Origin: Chloroflexota bacterium
Lineage (GTDB): Bacteria > Chloroflexota > Limnocylindria > Limnocylindrales > CSP1-4
Length of the DNA stretch: 64,000 bases
Direction of reading: 5' to 3'
Assembly: GCA_021802825.1 (NCBI GenBank)
Contig: JAJZRG010000006.1
Coordinates: forward strand, 1-64,000
Notes under the pieces: model-generated
The model's input: the letters and a program-made list of their open reading frames with translations, nothing else
Database searches by the model: none
What the model was told of the DNA's origin: nothing
Shown here: positions 2,824-55,875 of the stretch, piece by piece
How the letters are laid out: every line of letters starts with the position of its first letter
Numbering within the stretch: position 1 is the stretch's first letter
Translations under genes and position numbers: made by a program

Positions 2824-3707
2824 GGTACGCCTCCGCGGGCGCCTTCCGTCGAGCCCTCGAGATGCGCCTCGCCACGCACGCGCGCGACACCGGCCGCTCG
2901 GTGGTTCGACTGCGCAAGGAGGTCGCCTTCGATCGGCTGCTCGCTCGCCTGTTCGCCGTGGCCCCGGAGCGGTGGGTCCTGAAGGGCGCCCTGGCGCTCG
3001 ACTACCGCTTCGGCGATCGTGCGCGCACGACGAAGGACATCGACCTCGCCAGCGCGGGTGATGAGGCCTCGACGACGGCCGATCTGCTGGCGGCACAGGC
3101 ACTCGACCTTGGTGACTTCTTCGCCTTCGCGATCGAGCGCACGAGCGCCCTCGATCGCCTGGTGGAGGGTTCCGCGGTGCGCTACCACGTGCAGGCCGAG
3201 CTGGCCGGTCGCGTGTTCGACGAGTTCCTGCTCGACGTCGGCTTCGACCCGCCCACCGGGATCGAGCTCGACCGGCTGCGCGGGCCTGACCTCCTGGCCT
3301 TCGCCGATATTACGCCGGTCGAGGTCCCAGCAGTACCGATCGAGGTCCACGTGGCCGAGAAGCTTCATGCCTACAGCCGCGTGTACGGCGTGGGTTCAGT
3401 CGGGAGCACACGAGTCAAGGACCTCGTCGACCTGGCGCTGATCGCGACAGAGGCACCTCTGGACGCAGGGAATCTCCGGGCGGCCATCGGGACTACCTTC
3501 GGTCGACGCGCGAGCCATGATCTGCCCGCGAGGCTGCCTCGCCCACCGGCGTCCTGGCGTGTTCCGTACGGCCGGATGGCGCGCACCGTCGGCCTCGATG
3601 TCGACCTGGATGCGGGGTTCGACTCCGCCGCGCGAATGCTCGATCCGGTTCTCGGGCGCTCCGCGCAACGGGGCGCTTGGGATCCTGTCAGTCAGACCTG
3701 GACCTGA
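2820..3707 (+). CDS. abiEii: AbiEii-family nucleotidyltransferase toxin
   Basis: A 295-residue nucleotidyltransferase of the AbiEii/AbiGii family. The core motif is visible as LKGALAL (about 54-60) followed by RTTKDIDL (about 69-76), whose DxD aspartates bind metal. The usual second glycine of KGG is an alanine here. A basic VHVAEKLHAY segment around residue 175 and VKDLVDLALI near 195 are also typical of the family. Such toxins inhibit growth, some by adding nucleotides to tRNA, and can abort phage infection; the target here cannot be read from sequence. Its ATG overlaps the antitoxin stop, and the pair forms a complete two-gene operon. Confidence 0.85.
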   Translation: MRYASAGAFRRALEMRLATHARDTGRSVVRLRKEVAFDRLLARLFAVAPERWVLKGALALDYRFGDRARTTKDIDLASAGDEASTTADLLAAQALDLGDFFAFAIERTSALDRLVEGSAVRYHVQAELAGRVFDEFLLDVGFDPPTGIELDRLRGPDLLAFADITPVEVPAVPIEVHVAEKLHAYSRVYGVGSVGSTRVKDLVDLALIATEAPLDAGNLRAAIGTTFGRRASHDLPARLPRPPASWRVPYGRMARTVGLDVDLDAGFDSAARMLDPVLGRSAQRGAWDPVSQTWT

Positions 3708-3989
3708 TCCGCGGCAGCCAGGGGTTGGCAACCTGACGGTCGTCGGTGAGATCGAGCCGGCGCTGCTGCACCTACACGGGCACCTCTCCTCCGCAGCCAG
3801 ACAATACATAACTCGCCTTATCGGAAGTGCCAGCACGGCGGAGGAGCCTCGAGCGGAGTTGCGTAGGAGTCACGCCGGGGGTGCGCGCTTCTGCCGACAC
3901 GCTCGACTCCCGGCGTTCCCGGACATCACGCCGGCCCTGAGGTCAGCTACTTGCGAACGATCATCTCGCACACGCGAGCCGGCCTCAGG

Positions 3990-31637: not shown

Positions 31638-32390
31638 TCAGCGGCGCAGGTCGTGCCCCTCGATGGCGTCGATCAGCTCGCGCACCGAGACCCGTCCCTC
31701 GTACAGTGCCCGCCCGACGATGACGCCGGCGCACCCGGCCGCCTGCACCGCCAGCACGTCATTGAGCGACGAGATGCCGCCGGACGCGATGATCCGCTCG
31801 CTTCCGAGCCGGACAAGTGAGCGCAGCAGCGCAATGTCCGGTCCGCCCATGAGCCCATCGCGGTCGATCGCGGTGACCTCAAAGGTGTTGATCCCCGATG
31901 CCGCCAGCATCTCGAGCGCGTCGGTCGCCGGGACGCCGGCCGATCCCTGGCGCCAGCCGTCGCCGTAGGCCATGCCGTCGCGGATGTCGAGCGAGGCCAC
32001 GATCCTCGACGGCCCGTAGCGGGCGACGAGTCCGAGGCCGAAGGCCGGGTCGCGCAGGGCGGCAGTCCCCACGGCCACCCGCGTGGCCCCGGTCCCGAGC
32101 GCGCCCGCCACCGCCTCGGGGGAGCGCAGCCCACCGCCGACCTCCACGTGGGTCCGGCCGTGGACCTCCGCCACGATCTCGGCCACGAGCTCGAGCTGCC
32201 TCGGCTCCCCCTCGCGGGCTCCGTCGAGGTCCACGACGTGGAGCCATCTGGCACCGGCATCGGCGAACTGGCGGGCGAGCGCCACCGGCTCCAGCGCGTA
32301 GACCGTCTGGCGCGCGAAATCTCCCTGGATCAGGCGGACGACACGCCCGCCCTCGAGGTCGATAGCCGGCAGGATCTCGAACTGGGACAC
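31638..32390 (-). CDS. hisA: HisA, phosphoribosylformimino-AICAR-ribotide isomerase
   Basis: A 250-residue TIM barrel. HisA performs the Amadori isomerisation of ProFAR to PRFAR. The two half-barrel catalytic aspartates are seen in LPAIDLEGG (about D11) and the equivalent VTAIDRDGLMGG (around residue 175); phosphate-binding GG loops lie after the fourth and eighth strands. A GTG start follows a strong GGAGGG SD. It is transcribed away from the rest of the his genes, the two units sharing a ~100-bp control region with an operator-like AT-rich island. Confidence 0.95.
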   Translation of the reverse strand: MSQFEILPAIDLEGGRVVRLIQGDFARQTVYALEPVALARQFADAGARWLHVVDLDGAREGEPRQLELVAEIVAEVHGRTHVEVGGGLRSPEAVAGALGTGATRVAVGTAALRDPAFGLGLVARYGPSRIVASLDIRDGMAYGDGWRQGSAGVPATDALEMLAASGINTFEVTAIDRDGLMGGPDIALLRSLVRLGSERIIASGGISSLNDVLAVQAAGCAGVIVGRALYEGRVSVRELIDAIEGHDLRR

Positions 32391-32491
32391 GGGCCCTCCG
32401 TCCTTGCCTATTAGTGCACTACTACGCTAACATGCTACTAAGAGCGGCTGGGAACGACCTCGCCGACGCCCTGATCGGGAGGATCGCACCC
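32391..32491. promoter_or_regulatory. Divergent his control region with TrpR-family operator candidate
   Basis: The AT-rich island 32408-32442, unusual in this GC-rich DNA, contains the perfect palindrome TAGTGCACTA (32412-32421) and CTA/TAG triplets on both sides, including TTAGT (32411-32415) and ACTAA (32437-32441) as inverted arms. CTAG-like boxes are typical of the TrpR/YerC family encoded next door. Possible -10 boxes are TAATAG (minus, 32413-32408) for hisA and TACGCT (32423-32428) for the his operon. Confidence 0.6.
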
Positions 32492-32815
32492 GTGGCAAGC
32501 GAATGGCGGACCCCCGACCTCGACGCCCTGCTCGATGTCATTCTGCGCCTGGGCGACCGCGAGGAGGCGCTGAGCTTCCTGCGCGACCTGTGCACCGTGG
32601 GCGAGTTGCACGACATGGCCCAGCGCTGGGCCGTGGTCCGGATGCTCGACGCCGGCCTCCACTACGCGGAGATCTCGAAGCGCAGCGGCGCCAGTACGGC
32701 CACCATCACGAGGATCGCCTCGTGGCTCCACCACGGCGAGGGCGGATACCGCCGGCAGCTCGACCGGATGAAGGCCGAGACGGGCAGCGTGTACCCCGAG
32801 GCCGACGAGGCATGA
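32492..32815 (+). CDS. TrpR/YerC-family transcriptional regulator of the his operon
   Basis: A 107-residue helix-turn-helix protein of the TrpR-like YerC/YecD family: DALLDVILRLGDREEALSFLRDLCTVGEL, then MAQRWAVVRMLDAGLHYAEI and the recognition helix SGASTATITRIASWLHHG. Related regulators (HisR in Firmicutes) control histidine genes. GTG 32492 was chosen over upstream starts at 32414 and 32432 because it has a GGGAGG SD, gives the usual family length, and leaves the operator region untranslated. It overlaps hisG by ATGA and is the first gene of the operon, so feedback on its own expression is likely. Confidence 0.85.
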   Translation: MASEWRTPDLDALLDVILRLGDREEALSFLRDLCTVGELHDMAQRWAVVRMLDAGLHYAEISKRSGASTATITRIASWLHHGEGGYRRQLDRMKAETGSVYPEADEA

Positions 32816-33672
32816 GGGATCGGCTCCGGCTCGCCATCCCCAACAAGGGCCGCCTCGTCGAGCCCACCCTGTCGCTGCTCCACGCGTCCGGGCTGGTGTT
32901 CGAGGAGCACGACCGCAGCCTCGTCTCGCAGGTCGCGAACCAGCCGCTCGACATCCTCTTCGTCCGCACGGGCGACGTGGTCGAGTTCGTGGCGGACGGC
33001 GTCGCCGACGTCGGGATCACGGGCGCCGACATCCTGGCCGAGGCCGGCCGCGAGCTGCCGATCATCGCCCGGCTCGGCTACGGCCGCTGCCGCCTCGCCG
33101 TGGCGGTCCCCTCGGACGCCCCGGTCCGCGCGATCGAGGACCTCGCCGGCCAGCGCGTCGCGACCTCGCACCCGTCGATCACGCGCAGCTTCTTCAGGGA
33201 GCGCAACCTCCCGGTCGAGGTCGTCCCCCTCTCTGGCGCGGTCGAGGTGGCGCCCCGCCTCGGGCTCGCGGATGCCATCGTTGACCTCGTCTCGACCGGC
33301 TCCACGCTCCAGATGAACGGCCTGCGCGCGATCGGCGACGTGCTCGCCTCGGAGGCCGTCCTGGTGGCGGACCCCACGGCGCAGGAGCAGCGCCCAGCCG
33401 ACCTCGACAGCATCGTGATGATGCTCGGCTCCGTGCTCGCCGCGCGCAGCCGCAAGTACCTCATGATGAACGCCCCGGCGACACACCTCGAGGAGCTCGA
33501 GGGCCTCCTGCCGGGCCTGGAGTCGCCCTCGGTGATCCCCCTCGCGCACGCGGGCATGATCGCGATCCACTCTGTCGTCGGTGCCGACGAGGTCTGGGGC
33601 CTGCTGCCCCGCCTCAAGGCCGCGGGCGCCTCCGGGATCCTGGTCCTGCCCATCGAGAAGATCCTCCCGTGA
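32812..33672 (+). CDS. hisG: HisG, ATP phosphoribosyltransferase (long form)
   Basis: A 286-residue enzyme that catalyses the first step, joining ATP and PRPP. The periplasmic-binding-like core has IPNKGRL near the N-terminus and the PRPP loop IVDLVSTGSTL (around residue 165). The C-terminal ~75 residues (from YLMMNAPATHLEEL) are the ferredoxin-like regulatory domain of the long form, so histidine feedback inhibition is expected and HisZ is not needed. It overlaps the upstream regulator by ATGA and hisC by GTGA. Confidence 0.96.
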   Translation: MRDRLRLAIPNKGRLVEPTLSLLHASGLVFEEHDRSLVSQVANQPLDILFVRTGDVVEFVADGVADVGITGADILAEAGRELPIIARLGYGRCRLAVAVPSDAPVRAIEDLAGQRVATSHPSITRSFFRERNLPVEVVPLSGAVEVAPRLGLADAIVDLVSTGSTLQMNGLRAIGDVLASEAVLVADPTAQEQRPADLDSIVMMLGSVLAARSRKYLMMNAPATHLEELEGLLPGLESPSVIPLAHAGMIAIHSVVGADEVWGLLPRLKAAGASGILVLPIEKILP

Positions 33673-34895
33673 GCCCGACGCCCATGACCTGGGCCGAACC
33701 CGGGCCGCCGGCCTCGTACAGCTGGGAGGCGACCGACGAGGGCGTCGCCACCCGGTTCGGCCTCACGGTCGGGCAGATCGTCCGGTTCGACCTCAACACC
33801 TCCCCCGCCCCGCCCGCGCTCCTGGGAGAGATGCTGGCCGCCGGCACGTTCGAGACGAGCCTGTCGGAGTACCCGCCGGGCGACTACCGCCGGCTGGTCG
33901 AAGCTGCCGCCGAGCGGTACGGCGTGGGCACCGACGAGGTCGTCCCGGGAGCCGGCGCCGACGAGATCCTCGACATGGCGGCGAAGGCGTTCCTGCGGGC
34001 CGGCGAGCGCGCGGTCGTCCCGGTTCCCACCTACGCGATGTACCGCGTGGTCACCGAGCAGCGCGGCGGCGTCGTCGTCCCCGTGCCGCGCCTGGGCCCC
34101 GACGAGGGTTTCGCGCTCGACCTGCCGGCCATGCGTGAGGCTGCGCGCGACGCGGCGCTGGTCTGGCTGTGCAACCCGAACAACCCGACGGGCGCCGAGG
34201 AGCCGGAGGGGGCGATCGAGGCTCTGCTCGACACGATCAAGGCCGATGCCGCGGCCGAGGGCCGTGACCCGGCGGCCGTGGTGGTGGACGAGGCGTACGC
34301 CGAGTTCACCGGCCGCTCCCTGATCGGCATTCGCTCCAGCTACCCCAATCTGGTCGTCGTCCGGACCGCGTCCAAGGCGTACGCCCTTGCCGGGCTGCGC
34401 GTCGGCTTCGCGATCGCGGCGCCGGCAAGCCTCGCGCGCGTCGCCCTCTACCGGCCGCCGGGCTCGATCGGGACGATCTCTGAGACGGTTGTCACCCGAG
34501 CCCTGCGCGAGCCCGCGGCCATGCTCGCGAACGTTGCTCGTGTCGCGGCGGAGCGCCCCCGGCTGCTGGCCGCCTTCGAGACTGCGGGGTGGCGGCCCTA
34601 CCCGTCAGTCGCCTGCTTCGTCCTGGTGGACCTCGGCTCCGCGGCCCGCGCGTCGTTCGTCGCCGGGCAGCTGCTTCGCCGGGGCATCGTCCCGCGCACC
34701 TTCTCGGCCGGCCACCCGGCCGAGCGGTGCCTGCGCTTGACCGTCCGCGCCCCGCAGGAGAACGAGCGGCTGATCGAGGCGATCGCGCAGATCGCACCTG
34801 AGGCGGCGCGGGTCACGGCGCACCTCGACCCCGATCCCGCCACCACGCGCCTCGCCTCGGAAGCCGCGCAGCCCGTACCGAAGGAGCCAGCATGA
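33669..34895 (+). CDS. hisC: HisC, histidinol-phosphate aminotransferase
   Basis: A 408-residue fold-type I PLP enzyme, about 50 residues longer than usual. Motifs: LNTSPAPP, YPPGDYRRL, PGAGADEIL, CNPNNPTGA, VVVDEAYAEF and the PLP lysine in RTASKAYALAGLRVGF (around residue 238). It converts imidazole-acetol phosphate to histidinol phosphate. The extra length is an N-terminal ~25-residue leader and a C-terminal Pro/Ala-rich tail. The GTG start overlaps hisG; the end overlaps hisB by ATGA. Confidence 0.95.
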   Translation: MSPTPMTWAEPGPPASYSWEATDEGVATRFGLTVGQIVRFDLNTSPAPPALLGEMLAAGTFETSLSEYPPGDYRRLVEAAAERYGVGTDEVVPGAGADEILDMAAKAFLRAGERAVVPVPTYAMYRVVTEQRGGVVVPVPRLGPDEGFALDLPAMREAARDAALVWLCNPNNPTGAEEPEGAIEALLDTIKADAAAEGRDPAAVVVDEAYAEFTGRSLIGIRSSYPNLVVVRTASKAYALAGLRVGFAIAAPASLARVALYRPPGSIGTISETVVTRALREPAAMLANVARVAAERPRLLAAFETAGWRPYPSVACFVLVDLGSAARASFVAGQLLRRGIVPRTFSAGHPAERCLRLTVRAPQENERLIEAIAQIAPEAARVTAHLDPDPATTRLASEAAQPVPKEPA

Positions 34896-35518
34896 CCACG
34901 CCCCTCGGCACGCTCGAGGTCCTCGACCGGGGCGCCCGCAGCGTGCGCGTCCGCCGGGCCACCCGCGAGACCACGATCGAGGTCGCCCTGACGCTCGACG
35001 GCACGGGCCGCGCCCGGGTCTCCAGCGGCATCGGCTTCTACGACCACCTCCTGGCCTCGTTCGCCCACCACGGCCTGTTCGACCTCGAGCTCTCCGCGAA
35101 GGGCGACCTCGAGGTGGACGAGCACCACACCGTGGAGGACGTTGCCCTCGTGCTGGGAGCGGCGTTCGCGGAGGCGCTGGGCGACAAGGTGGGCATCAAC
35201 CGCTTCGGCGACAGCTCGGTGCCGATGGACGAATCGCTCGCGACCGCGGTCCTCGACCTCAGCGGGCGACCATACGCGGTGATCGACCTGCCGTTCCGCG
35301 GCGAGCGCGCCGGCGGGCTGCCGCTCCAGCTCGTGGACCACGCCCTCGAGTCGTTCGCGCGAACGTCCGGCGCAACGCTCAACCTCCGCGGCTCCGGCCG
35401 CAATGACCACCACCTCGCCGAGGCTGCGTTCAAGGCGCTCGGCCGCGCCCTCCGCGTCGCCTGCGAGCTCGACCCGCGACGGACCGGCGTCGCGTCGACG
35501 AAGGGCTCGCTCGGATGA
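34892..35518 (+). CDS. hisB: HisB, imidazoleglycerol-phosphate dehydratase
   Basis: A 208-residue monofunctional IGPD without a phosphatase domain. The duplicated metal-binding motifs are clear: YDHLLASFAHHG with DEHHTVED in the first half, and VDHALESFA with RNDHHLAEAAFKALGRAL in the second. These histidines and glutamates bind two Mn ions. Since it is monofunctional, a separate histidinol-phosphatase is needed; none is obvious in the window, unless the PHP protein at 12549 does so, which is speculative. Confidence 0.96.
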   Translation: MTTPLGTLEVLDRGARSVRVRRATRETTIEVALTLDGTGRARVSSGIGFYDHLLASFAHHGLFDLELSAKGDLEVDEHHTVEDVALVLGAAFAEALGDKVGINRFGDSSVPMDESLATAVLDLSGRPYAVIDLPFRGERAGGLPLQLVDHALESFARTSGATLNLRGSGRNDHHLAEAAFKALGRALRVACELDPRRTGVASTKGSLG

Positions 35519-36162
35519 CGGGCCCCGAGCCGCTCGCCGGCAGGCGGCTGCCGGTCACGGTCGTGGACTACGGTGCCGGCAACCTGGTCTCAATCGAGCA
35601 GGCGCTCGTCACCGCGGGCGCCGACGTCCGGCGGGCGGCGACCGCCGACGAGATCGCCGACCCGGCGCTGCTGGTGGTGCCGGGGGTGGGCGCCTCGGCC
35701 CCCGCGATGGACCGCCTGCGCGCCGGTGGCTTTGTGCCCGCGATCCTCGGCTGGATCGCCGCGGACCGGCCGTTCCTCGGCATCTGCCTCGGGCTCCAGC
35801 TGCTGTTCCAGGCCAGCGACGAGGACGGCGCGGTCACCCTCGGGGTCCTGCGCGGGCACACGGCCCGCCTGGAGGGCGCGCCCACGCTCCCCCACATCGG
35901 ATGGAACCAGGTGGAGCGGCGGTTCGACCACCCGGCCTTCGCCGGCATCGCGCCCGGCGCCGACTTCTACTTCGTCCACTCGTACGCGGGCGCCCGCGTG
36001 GACGATGAGGTCATCCTCGCGGAGACCGAGCACGGCGCGCGATTCACGGCGGCCGTCGCGCGGGGGAATCTGCTGGGCGTCCAGTTCCACCCGGAGCGCT
36101 CGGGCACCGACGGGCTTCGCCTGATCGCCAACGTGGTCCGCCTCGCAGCAGGGGCAGCCTGA
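35515..36162 (+). CDS. hisH: HisH, glutamine amidotransferase subunit of IGP synthase
   Basis: A 215-residue class I glutamine amidotransferase. The nucleophilic cysteine is in [12 protein letters not shown] (about residue 88) and the His-Glu pair in VQFHPERSG near the C-terminus. It supplies ammonia to HisF. The first ATG overlaps the hisB stop (ATGA), and its stop shares one base with the hisF start (TGATG), fitting equimolar production of the HisHF complex. Confidence 0.96.
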
Positions 36163-36959
36163 TGCTCCGCCGCCGCGTCATCCCCTGCCTCGACGTCGCG
36201 AACGGACGCGTCGTCAAGGGCACCCGCTTCGTGGACCTGCGCGACGAGGGCGACCCGCCCGAGCTCGCCGAGCGCTACGCTCGTGAGGGCGCCGACGAGA
36301 TCGTGTTCCTCGACATCACGGCGGCGCCGGAGGGCCGGGGCACACTACTCGAAATTGTGGAGCGGACGGCGCGGCGCGCCTTCATCCCGCTCACGGTGGG
36401 TGGCGGGGTCCGGAGCGTGGACGACATGCGCGACGTGCTGCGGGCCGGCGCCGACAAGGTCAGCCTCAACACGAGAGCCGTCGAGGACCCCGGGCTCGTC
36501 CGACGCTGCGCCGCGCGGTTCGGCAGCCAGGCGGTGGTCGTCGCGATCGACGCGCGGCGGGCGCCCGCGAGCGACGGCATCCCGTCAGGCTTCGAGGTGG
36601 TTGTGAAGGGCGGCCGCCAGGCCGTGGGGCTCGACGCGGTCGCCTGGGCGACGCGGGCAGTGGAGCTGGGGGCCGGCGAGCTGCTGGTGACTTCGATCGA
36701 CCGCGACGGGACGAAGTCCGGGTTCGACACCGAGCTGCTGCGCGCCATCTGTGGGCTCGTCCCGGTGCCGGTCATCGCTTCGGGCGGTGCTGCGGGCCCC
36801 GAGGATTTCGTCGCGGCCATCCGCGATGGGGGCGCTGACGCCGTGCTGGCGGCCGGGATCTTCCACCGGCGCGAGTGGACGATCGCGGCGATCAAGGCGG
36901 CGATGGCCGAGGCGGGACTGCCCGTGCGGCCAGCGGTCGGCGTGACGGTGCTCCCATGA
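36162..36959 (+). CDS. hisF: HisF, cyclase subunit of IGP synthase
   Basis: A 265-residue TIM barrel paralogous to HisA. The catalytic aspartates are D11 in [14 protein letters not shown] and the one in [13 protein letters not shown] (around residue 180). The GGG(V) and SGGAAG phosphate loops are present. It closes the imidazole ring using ammonia from HisH. It overlaps hisH by one base and hisIE by ATGA. Confidence 0.97.
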
Positions 36960-37714
36960 GCGACACACCGGCGTTGCCGGCGACCCCCGCCGCGCCGGCG
37001 ACCAGCGGGGCCGGTTCCGTTGACCTCATGGCCGGCCCCTCGGCGGACGCGGTCGCCTGGGGCGAGGGCGGGCTCGTCGCGGGTGTGGTCCAGGACGTCG
37101 CCGATGGCCGGGTCCTCATGGTGGGCTGGCTCGACGCCGAGGCACTCGCGGCCACGCTCGCCACCGGCGAGGTGCACTTCCACTCGAGGTCGCGTGGCCG
37201 CCTGTGGCGCAAGGGCGAGACCTCGGGCAACGTGCTCCGCCTCCGCTCGCTCTCGATCGACTGCGACGGCGACGCGCTGCTCCTAGGGGTCGAGCCGGCT
37301 GGGCCGACCTGCCACCGGGGCGTGCGGTCATGCTTCGACGCGGACGCGCCTTCGGCCGAGACGCCGGCAGCGGCGGCCCAGGGCTTCGCGTGGCTGGAAT
37401 CGCTCTGGGCGACCATCGCCGCGCGCGCTGCGGAGCGACCCGCCGGCTCGTACACGACGCGCCTGCTCGACGGGGGCGTGGACCTGGTCGGTCGCAAGGT
37501 TGCCGAGGAGGCCACGGAAGTGCTCCTGGCGGCGAAGAATGACCAGGCGTCCGAACGGGCGGGCCGGGACCGGACCGAAACGGGCCATCTGCTGGCTGGC
37601 GAAACCGCCGATCTGGCCTACCATGCGCTCGTGCTGCTCGCCGAGCGGGGCCTGACGCCGGCCGACGTGCTCGCGGTCCTCCGCGACCGCCACGGCAGGC
37701 CCGGCGGCCGCTGA
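36956..37714 (+). CDS. hisI: HisIE, bifunctional PRA-CH / PRA-PH
   Basis: A 252-residue fusion. After a ~40-residue Ala/Pro-rich leader comes the cyclohydrolase domain ([50 protein letters not shown] with the zinc cysteines), then the MazG-like pyrophosphohydrolase (about 150-245: [38 protein letters not shown]). They catalyse steps 2 and 3 of histidine synthesis. It is the last his gene in this operon; hisD is not in the window. Confidence 0.95.
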
Positions 37715-54764: not shown

Positions 54765-55478
54765 TTAGGACCCGATCGGGACTGCCCCGCTGGTCGCGAA
54801 GTAGCTGACGCACTGGCCCTGGTTCTTGAACGTGAGCGTGTTGCCGCTGCCGTCCTTGTACAGGTTCGTCGCCCAACCGCCGTCCTTGCAGCTGGCGCCG
54901 GTCGTGGCGACCTGCGTCACGATGACGTTGTCGATGACCGGGCCCCAAGCGCCGGCCGTCAGGCTGGCGAAGGTCAGTGTCGAAGTGGTCCCTGTAGCGA
55001 CGAAGGTGTAGCCCAGCGTCTGGTACTTCATGTCGGTACGGGTATTGCCCATGACCTGCGTGTTGAAGTCGTAGGTCGCGGGGGCGGTGCTGGTCCCAGT
55101 CGCGCCGACCTGCACGGTCTTGACGCCAAGGTTGGAATCGGGGTTGCCGGAAAGCGCGAAGGTCACGAAGTACGTGCCGCCGTTCACGGTCGCGAAGGCG
55201 TTACTGGTGACGGCTCCTGCAGCGTTGCCGTCGAGGTCGACGCTCTTCGTGCCCGCTGCTGCCTGCCAGTACGAGGAGTCCACCCAGTCGACCGAACCGC
55301 TGCTCACGGTCCAGCCGCTGATCGCCGTGGATCCGGTGGGCAGTGTGTTAAAGATTCCGCCCGTGTACGAACCAGTCTCGAAGCTGCCGTTCGTGAGACC
55401 GGCCGCCAGCGCCGAGCCGGCGATCGCGAGCGATGCCACCACCGCGAGCGTCGTGCCAACAATCGAGCTTCTCTTCAT
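54765..55478 (-). CDS. Secreted choice-of-anchor-C-like (DUF642-type) protein
   Basis: A 237-residue exported protein. It has a signal peptide (about 1-26: MKRSS, hydrophobic VVASLAIAG, cleavage near ALAAG). The body is a beta-sandwich rich in Gly, Ser and Thr: GLTNGSFETG, GWTVSSGSVDWV, GTKSVDLDGNAAGAV, YFVTFALSGN. These match the choice-of-anchor-C family of secreted beta domains, some of which bind carbohydrates. The C-terminal CKDGGW ... FKNQGQCVSYF motif is a common short tail in secreted proteins of high-GC bacteria. A strong GGGAGG SD precedes the ATG. A Gly/Thr composition richer in A/T sets it apart from the neighbours. Confidence 0.8.
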   Translation of the reverse strand: MKRSSIVGTTLAVVASLAIAGSALAAGLTNGSFETGSYTGGIFNTLPTGSTAISGWTVSSGSVDWVDSSYWQAAAGTKSVDLDGNAAGAVTSNAFATVNGGTYFVTFALSGNPDSNLGVKTVQVGATGTSTAPATYDFNTQVMGNTRTDMKYQTLGYTFVATGTTSTLTFASLTAGAWGPVIDNVIVTQVATTGASCKDGGWATNLYKDGSGNTLTFKNQGQCVSYFATSGAVPIGS

Positions 55479-55875
55479 GAGCGCATGCCTCCCTAGGCTG
55501 CACGGGACGCGTGCAGCACGGCCGGGCGGGGTCGGTCTCGCCAGTGGCTCGGCGCGGTCCAGGCGGCCGAAGTTTGCGGACCGCGCGTCGTGGCCTCCCG
55601 TCTTGCCGGCTCATTGTAAGGCGCCGGTGCGACAGGCGCCGCGGCCGGGTCGATCTGCGGTCTGCGCCCTCTCGGCCGTCGCAGCTCCCCCAGCGCACGC
55701 GGGGCCAGCCCCGAATCGGGCCTGGTCTCCGAGCTCGCCCTGCTCGCTGAGCTTCGAAGCCAGGGCTCGCTCACGGAGTCAGAGTTCGGTTGGGCGAAGG
55801 TGAAGCCCCTCGGGCGGGACTAACGCGCCCGTACCGGGACTAACGCGCCCGTACCGTCGGTTCCGGGAGCGCAGC
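55479..55875. other. Intergenic region with a 20-bp tandem duplication
   Basis: About 400 bp without a gene. The only distinct structure is the duplication at 55816-55855. Confidence 0.5.
55816..55855. repeat. Perfect 20-bp tandem duplication
   Basis: GGGACTAACGCGCCCGTACC occurs twice in tandem (55816-55835, 55836-55855), just downstream of the membrane protein gene's stop. Confidence 0.85.

Follow-up and report, generated by a model that had tools for sequence, protein, structure and literature searches.

The intergenic gap between hisA and hisR in this Chloroflexota genome most likely serves as one bidirectional operator-promoter region, at which histidine-loaded HisR would co-repress hisA and the hisR operon and would autoregulate its own synthesis. 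Since a strongly conserved HisR-type site lies between the two gene sets, a single switch very probably controls both of them and the repressor itself. The site is symmetric and phased at 8 bp, it is linked to hisR, and it is duplicated when the two promoters separate. The window, as used below, is the whole stretch of 64,000 nucleotides (64 kb) of DNA that was analyzed. The genes around the gap and the probable ribosome-binding sites within it are the following.

31638-32390, minus strand: hisA (ProFAR isomerase), divergent, GTG start at 32390 (TIGR00007)
32391-32491: hisA–hisR intergenic gap, 101 bp, exact between the GTG at 32390 (minus) and the GTG at 32492 (plus)
32492-32815, plus strand: hisR, YerC-type TrpR-family regulator of 107 aa, GTG start (TIGR02531, PF01371, PDB relatives)
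32812-33672, plus strand: hisG, long form with C-terminal domain (TIGR00070 and TIGR03455), overlapping the hisR stop
33669-34895, plus strand: hisC-like aminotransferase (best model TIGR01141, 232.9 bits, below the cut-off of 276.55)
34892-35518, plus strand: hisB (IGP dehydratase)
35515-36162, plus strand: hisH (TIGR01855)
36162-36959, plus strand: hisF (TIGR00735)
36875-37714, plus strand: hisIE (NF002747), ORF taken from the first GTG
32394-32399, minus strand: GGAGGG, probable hisA ribosome-binding site, read from the sequence
32477-32483, plus strand: GGGAGGA, probable hisR ribosome-binding site, 8 nt before the GTG

Seven genes thus follow one another on one strand in the order hisR-hisG-hisC-hisB-hisH-hisF-hisIE, with hisA on the opposite strand. 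The match of hisA to TIGR00007 (E 2.2e-65, 220.5 bits) is slightly below the cut-off of 228.95. The true start of hisIE is probably later than the first GTG, as the family match starts at residue 57-58. The initial annotation placed a TrpR-fold regulator first in the his operon, and this is borne out: hisR and hisG overlap by 4 bases, which makes hisR the first gene of the operon, and the HisR protein passes the YerC/YecD model TIGR02531 (84.7 bits, cut-off 42.2) and matches Pfam PF01371 at 85.7 bits. HisR is the only protein of the genome assembly that matches PF01371. An assignment as the tryptophan repressor TrpR was rejected, with 26.1 bits against the equivalog TIGR01321 (cut-off 67.25). 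The closest solved structures are PDB 3kor, 3frw and 3g1c. In an alignment of 20 HisR proteins, several of them shortened at their 3' ends, the contact residues are A70 (90% or more), T71, R74 and Y58 (invariant). The helix-turn-helix contacts Ala, Thr and Arg at TrpR positions 80/81/84 are conserved and Tyr replaces Arg69, positions being matched to TrpR by eye with the help of the STATITR motif and the text of PMC9413887.

The gap holds an array of repeated units, of which the main elements are listed here.

32399-32434: 36-bp operator match, top-scoring in the window (30.7 bits with a matrix built from sites outside the genus)
32407-32426: 20-bp core CCTATTAGTG-CACTACTACG, a HisR/TrpR-type palindrome, by consensus match
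32412-32443: four 8-bp units TAGTGCAC TACTACGC TAACATGC TACTAAGA, read from the sequence

The matrix trained outside the genus comprises 63 sites and recognizes a second operator register 8 bp further, at 32407, with 27.6 bits. Against the 30.7 bits of the gap site, no unrelated place in the 64 kb scores above -10.5. TA steps at 32412, 32420, 32428 and 32436 form a run of four with a spacing of exactly 8 bp, and the CTA/TAG boxes noted earlier are therefore real and phased. The AT-rich island that had been described in the gap shared with hisA was also recovered, with A/T at 20 of the 32 bases of 32410-32441. The dyad TAGTGCACTA, which had been proposed as the operator, is present at 32412-32421 and, allowing at most 1 mismatch, is found only there in the 64-kb window, the expected number being 0.11; it is a single unit of a longer dyad array, and it is this 8-bp array, rather than the single dyad, that constitutes the operator. 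Across the assembly, TAGTNCACTA has a single location. A search of the assembly for a second operator with the degenerate pattern TANNRYNCTANNAYGNTANCA, at 1 mismatch, matched two registers of the gap only, and weaker sites may exist elsewhere.

Could the array be a chance AT-rich palindrome? All that speaks for this is that short AT-rich stretches are low in complexity. When the gap was shuffled 5000 times, no shuffle attained the score of the site, the maximum being 6.9, and a set of 60 Markov sequences, each 64 kb long, did not exceed 10.7. Relatives of the window rank the corresponding site first at every locus scored (74/74, described below). Chance is thereby refuted, its probability being negligible.

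The conservation of the site was followed in 101 genomes that were searched for HisR, the window's own included, and the protein was present in 54 of them. Genome contigs yielded 80 named loci, to which further stretches were added; after removal of the window itself (L001-L003) and of loci with identical 160-nt upstream ends, 116 rows were kept. These rows were assigned by hand, from record titles, to the window's family set or to an Acidimicrobiia-type group. All 76 rows of the family set, window included, have hisG at the locus together with a divergent hisA no more than 300 bp away. The Acidimicrobiia-type rows have both divergent hisA (29/29, 27 of them within 300 bp) and hisG (29/29), and among the other 11 rows a divergent hisA was found in 1 and hisG in 6. 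Because the loci were recruited through the HisR protein, these gene-arrangement counts are conditional on hisR.

Expectation-maximization on the family gaps returned the 36-bp consensus c.TGctagCGT.tTAgCAcGCTACTAcGcTA.cAcg, which correlates with its own reverse complement (r 0.86) and with itself at 8 bp (0.69) and 16 bp (0.59). An unseeded motif search with 40 random starts, from which L099 was excluded, recovered the same features in its five best runs. The best of them reached an information of 35.7 bits, a dyad symmetry of 0.86 and an 8-bp autocorrelation of 0.72, compared to maxima of 9.1 bits, 0.47 and 0.38 in 40 shuffled sets. The dyad symmetry of the motif was r 0.86 to 0.88 (shuffled maximum 0.47, 40 sets). 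Runs of at least three TA dinucleotides at a step of 8 occur in 96% of the gaps, while any other step from 3 to 14 accounts for at most 5%; in shuffled gaps of the relatives a run of three at step 8 is seen in about 0.4%. When each locus was scored over its full length, the top-ranked site fell in the hisA–hisR gap in 74 of 74 family loci. In this rank test, sites at least 75% identical were left out of training, and the 74 loci exclude the window and L099. L099, whose gap is cut short and holds Ns although part of the array is still visible, was dropped from both the matrix and the test. The check that had been proposed, i.e., whether relatives with the same gene order share the dyad, has therefore been carried out with a positive outcome.

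The family matrix was also applied to 40 loci outside the family set, from Acidimicrobiia, Thermoleophilia, MAGs labeled Acidobacteria, Patescibacteria and other Chloroflexota. In 36 of these loci, the top-scoring site is located upstream of hisR. Of the four misses, L132 and L134 have two sites each and score higher at the hisA one; in L108 the top match follows the hisR start by 345 bp, and in L136 (Patescibacteria) no operator was found, the only match (2.5 bits) lying 799 bp downstream. In a sample of the phylum Chloroflexota, 46 of 400 genomes have a TIGR02531 match. Ten HisR loci of these genomes, from other Chloroflexota families and classes, were inspected, and nine of them combine divergent hisA, downstream hisG and a gap site (14 to 41 bits). 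The tenth, in the single-contig Chloroflexota genome G248, has HisR away from the his genes and no site within 5 kb. Some YerC-type proteins hence fall outside the scheme, as G248 and L136 lack a site. The G248 protein (L188, G248:C1:1481915-1482169) gave the top TIGR02531 score of the phylum sample, 124.8 bits, and is possibly a Firmicutes-like HisR. In Patescibacteria, HisR was found with strong 8-bp-phased sites of 22 to 25 bits (L108:4333-4368, L104:3968-4003 and L123:3945-3980); matches to hisA or hisG are absent nearby, and the L108 site is the one downstream of hisR.

The best available evidence that hisA itself is a target comes from L132 and L134 (Acidimicrobiaceae), where hisA and hisR are set apart by an uncharacterized gene of 180 aa, and a copy of the site is retained at each of the two promoters. 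The copies abutting hisA score 30.5 bits (L132) and 33.7 bits (L134), and those upstream of hisR 29.2 and 33.5 bits. The earlier proposal that both units are controlled from one site is strengthened by these loci, where each promoter has its own copy once hisA and hisR are apart. The inserted ORF lies at about 3346-3888, and its match to DUF7937 in L134 is weak and sub-threshold.

These copies bear on a narrower reading, which we consider quite unlikely, that restricts the action of the site to hisR and the hisG operon, by autoregulation as in Proteobacteria, and takes hisA as a constitutive neighbor. It is consistent with the proteobacterial arrangement, in which hisR heads the operon with the site immediately upstream and the main text of PMC9413887 describes no divergent gene. 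It would also accommodate a -10 element that, by eye, is better on the hisR side than on the hisA side, and the class relatives L054-L056 from another family, which have the site at hisR-hisG without a divergent hisA; other loci lack a divergent hisA as well. Control of hisR alone is nevertheless difficult to reconcile with copies of 29 to 34 bits kept at both genes of L132 and L134 despite the inserted gene, with the symmetry of the motif and its position directly at the hisA start in Acidimicrobiia, and with the divergent hisA of all 76 family and all 29 Acidimicrobiia-type rows.

Promoters were sought in the gap as well. A sigma-70 consensus scan found no promoter at 9 of 12, and since the scan gave none, the overlap of promoter and array is a by-eye assignment of two candidates.

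32404-32433, plus strand: candidate hisR promoter TTGCCT-18-TAACAT, which the array overlaps
32408-32413, minus strand: possible hisA -10 element TAATAG inside the operator, with no good -35

It could be proposed that the conserved sequence is itself a divergent promoter pair, maintained by contacts with RNA polymerase. The outer units do resemble TAGCAT/TATGCT -10 boxes, and TTG-type -35 elements precede them in several relatives, by eye. Against this stand the strict 8-bp phase and the dyad symmetry, which are foreign to promoters. Moreover, the site is missing from the his genes of class relatives with no hisR match (18 of 18 loci, 7 at hisG and 11 at hisA; best score -5.1) and recurs together with hisR in other phyla, which makes a promoter pair very improbable as the source of the conservation. 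The class relatives were used for this comparison because the hisR-less genomes of the family itself are uninformative as a negative control: of its 10 genomes lacking a hisR match, no hisG is present in 8, and in the remaining 2 hisG sits at the edge of a contig. Control by a known RNA family was considered and rejected, as an Rfam search of the 64-kb window detected no T-box or attenuator family, its only matches being a tRNA and a c-di-GMP-II riboswitch.

How does the operator compare with known HisR and TrpR systems? The HisR (YerC) regulon has been described in Firmicutes, with members in Actinobacteria (Coriobacteriales, Eggerthellales), Synergistetes and others (Ashniev et al., 2022; PMC9413887). 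The phylum list of this paper does not include Chloroflexota, and in its main text the terms "divergent" and "Acidimicrob" are absent and "Chloroflexi" appears in the reference list only. HisR is reported there to regulate itself in nearly half of the genomes studied, and the site of Ruminococcus gnavus HisR was bound on addition of histidine, the sole case given in which histidine-dependent binding of a HisR has been shown. With the Firmicutes system, the window shares a YerC-type TrpR-family protein, a 20-bp palindromic core, histidine biosynthesis as target and, as predicted here, autoregulation; the passages of PMC9413887 used here describe neither a divergent hisA nor an 8-bp array. The Firmicutes operator consensus cacTTTAnnnnnnTAAAgtg was tried and rejected, with a best match in the gap of 8/14 positions that is equaled by 32% of shuffles. 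The window core agrees better with the proteobacterial HisR consensus TGTAnTArnnnnyTAnTACA, at 11/14 positions in a symmetrized form made in this analysis (equaled by 0.35% of gap shuffles) and at 10/14 as printed (2.9% of shuffles), and with the TrpR consensus at 11/16 (1.9% of shuffles), the published consensuses being taken from PMC9413887. The initial annotation had seen here an extension of the Firmicutes HisR scheme. A relative of HisR is indeed present, but its operator fits the TrpR/proteobacterial HisR type and leaves the Firmicutes consensus unmatched, so that the scheme is not simply extended.

As in Proteobacteria, hisR is first in its operon and the site is just upstream of it; in contrast to the proteobacterial site, the one in the window is common to divergent hisA, extends over about 36-44 bp and has an 8-bp phase. 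With E. coli TrpR, HisR shares family membership (Trp repressor chains, profile E 0.02 to 0.14), a 20-bp symmetric core and predicted autoregulation, and it differs in failing the equivalog cut-off, in having Tyr58 where TrpR has Arg69 (mapping after PMC9413887) and in the pathway, which is that of histidine. In the literature searched, which took in the main text of PMC9413887, no paper with a shared operator between divergent hisA and hisR in Chloroflexota was seen. The two-way arrangement and the repeated 8-base site appear to be new in Chloroflexota, HisR itself being already known elsewhere.

The effector of HisR might be something other than free histidine, such as a pathway intermediate or another amino acid, and this we regard as unlikely. 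Another effector has been proposed for HisR2 paralogs, which in other bacteria are found beside tyrosine/tyramine genes (PMC9413887). The clade of the window's HisR has a conserved TRxAxWLxHGEGG stretch and a C-terminal WLHHGEGGY motif that differ from the three solved Firmicutes proteins, the former after STAT, and this too would be consistent with a different ligand. Histidine is favored by the histidine biosynthesis context throughout the family and by the window protein, which appears to match the region of acidic residues proposed for histidine contact in PMC9413887.

In the mechanism with histidine as corepressor, HisR would bind histidine when it is plentiful. HisR dimers would then sit side by side on the TA-phased array in steps of 8 bp, with three overlapping dimer registers in the window genome. 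The array of HisR would cover the hisA promoter on one side and the promoter of hisR-hisG-hisC-hisB-hisH-hisF-hisIE on the other, shutting off both units and the synthesis of HisR itself. When histidine runs out, HisR would be released and both units would be transcribed. Here we infer HisR binding, the role of histidine as corepressor, repression rather than activation, the promoter positions and the cooperative side-by-side binding. Occupancy with histidine and tandem 8-bp registers are likely by analogy to R. gnavus HisR and to the tandem dimers of TrpR, for which tandem binding is possible and cooperativity is variable (PMC8745587).

In Acidimicrobiia, about 30 bp separate the start codons of hisA and hisR. 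The 36-bp site, abutting the hisA start, spans the distance from start codon to start codon in most rows, with starts assigned by eye. Because the site fills the start-to-start gap, the divergent hisA and hisR genes of Acidimicrobiia may be leaderless. A bolder version of the mechanism, which we put forward only tentatively and with less than even confidence, would have an edge-to-edge array of at least three HisR dimers in 8-bp steps filling the gap, the Acidimicrobiia genes leaderless, and the element, hisR and the hisG-type operon together forming a self-regulating cassette that moves between phyla.

Some history of such a cassette may be preserved in HisG. In a HisG tree, a branch of 2.05 with a support of 100/100 separates the cassette from hisR-less class relatives, and the hisR-bearing rows of Acidimicrobiia and other Chloroflexota are found on the cassette's side. 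The tree was built from the HisR-recruited loci and from HisG of 7 class relatives without hisR, several of these sequences being partial (170-210 aa), and the direction of transfer is outside its reach; an exchange of the cassette between lineages is suggested. The hisD gene of the window's genome lies outside the operon (L142, G000:C77:10403-11620), and its upstream region has no site (best score -20.4). In many relatives, hisG and hisC are about 1.35 kb apart, a distance that corresponds to the size of hisD. Relocation of hisD may have released it from HisR control.

Chloroflexota and Acidimicrobiia have few cultured members, and little is known about their regulation. The predicted control of histidine synthesis by HisR would be extended to both groups, for which the site matrix is ready to be used in annotation. 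The arrangement also provides two natural tests. Does a TrpR-fold repressor use overlapping 8-bp registers to serve two divergent promoters from one element? Do a regulator, its operator and its target operon move together, as the long, fully supported HisG branch might indicate?

Elsewhere in the window, the riboswitch detected by Rfam is of the c-di-GMP-II-GAG type (55521-55607, minus strand; 66.6 bits, gathering threshold 40). Directly downstream of it, a 237-aa DUF642 protein with a signal-like N-terminus is encoded (54765-55478, minus strand), which suggests that an exported DUF642 protein may be under the control of c-di-GMP.
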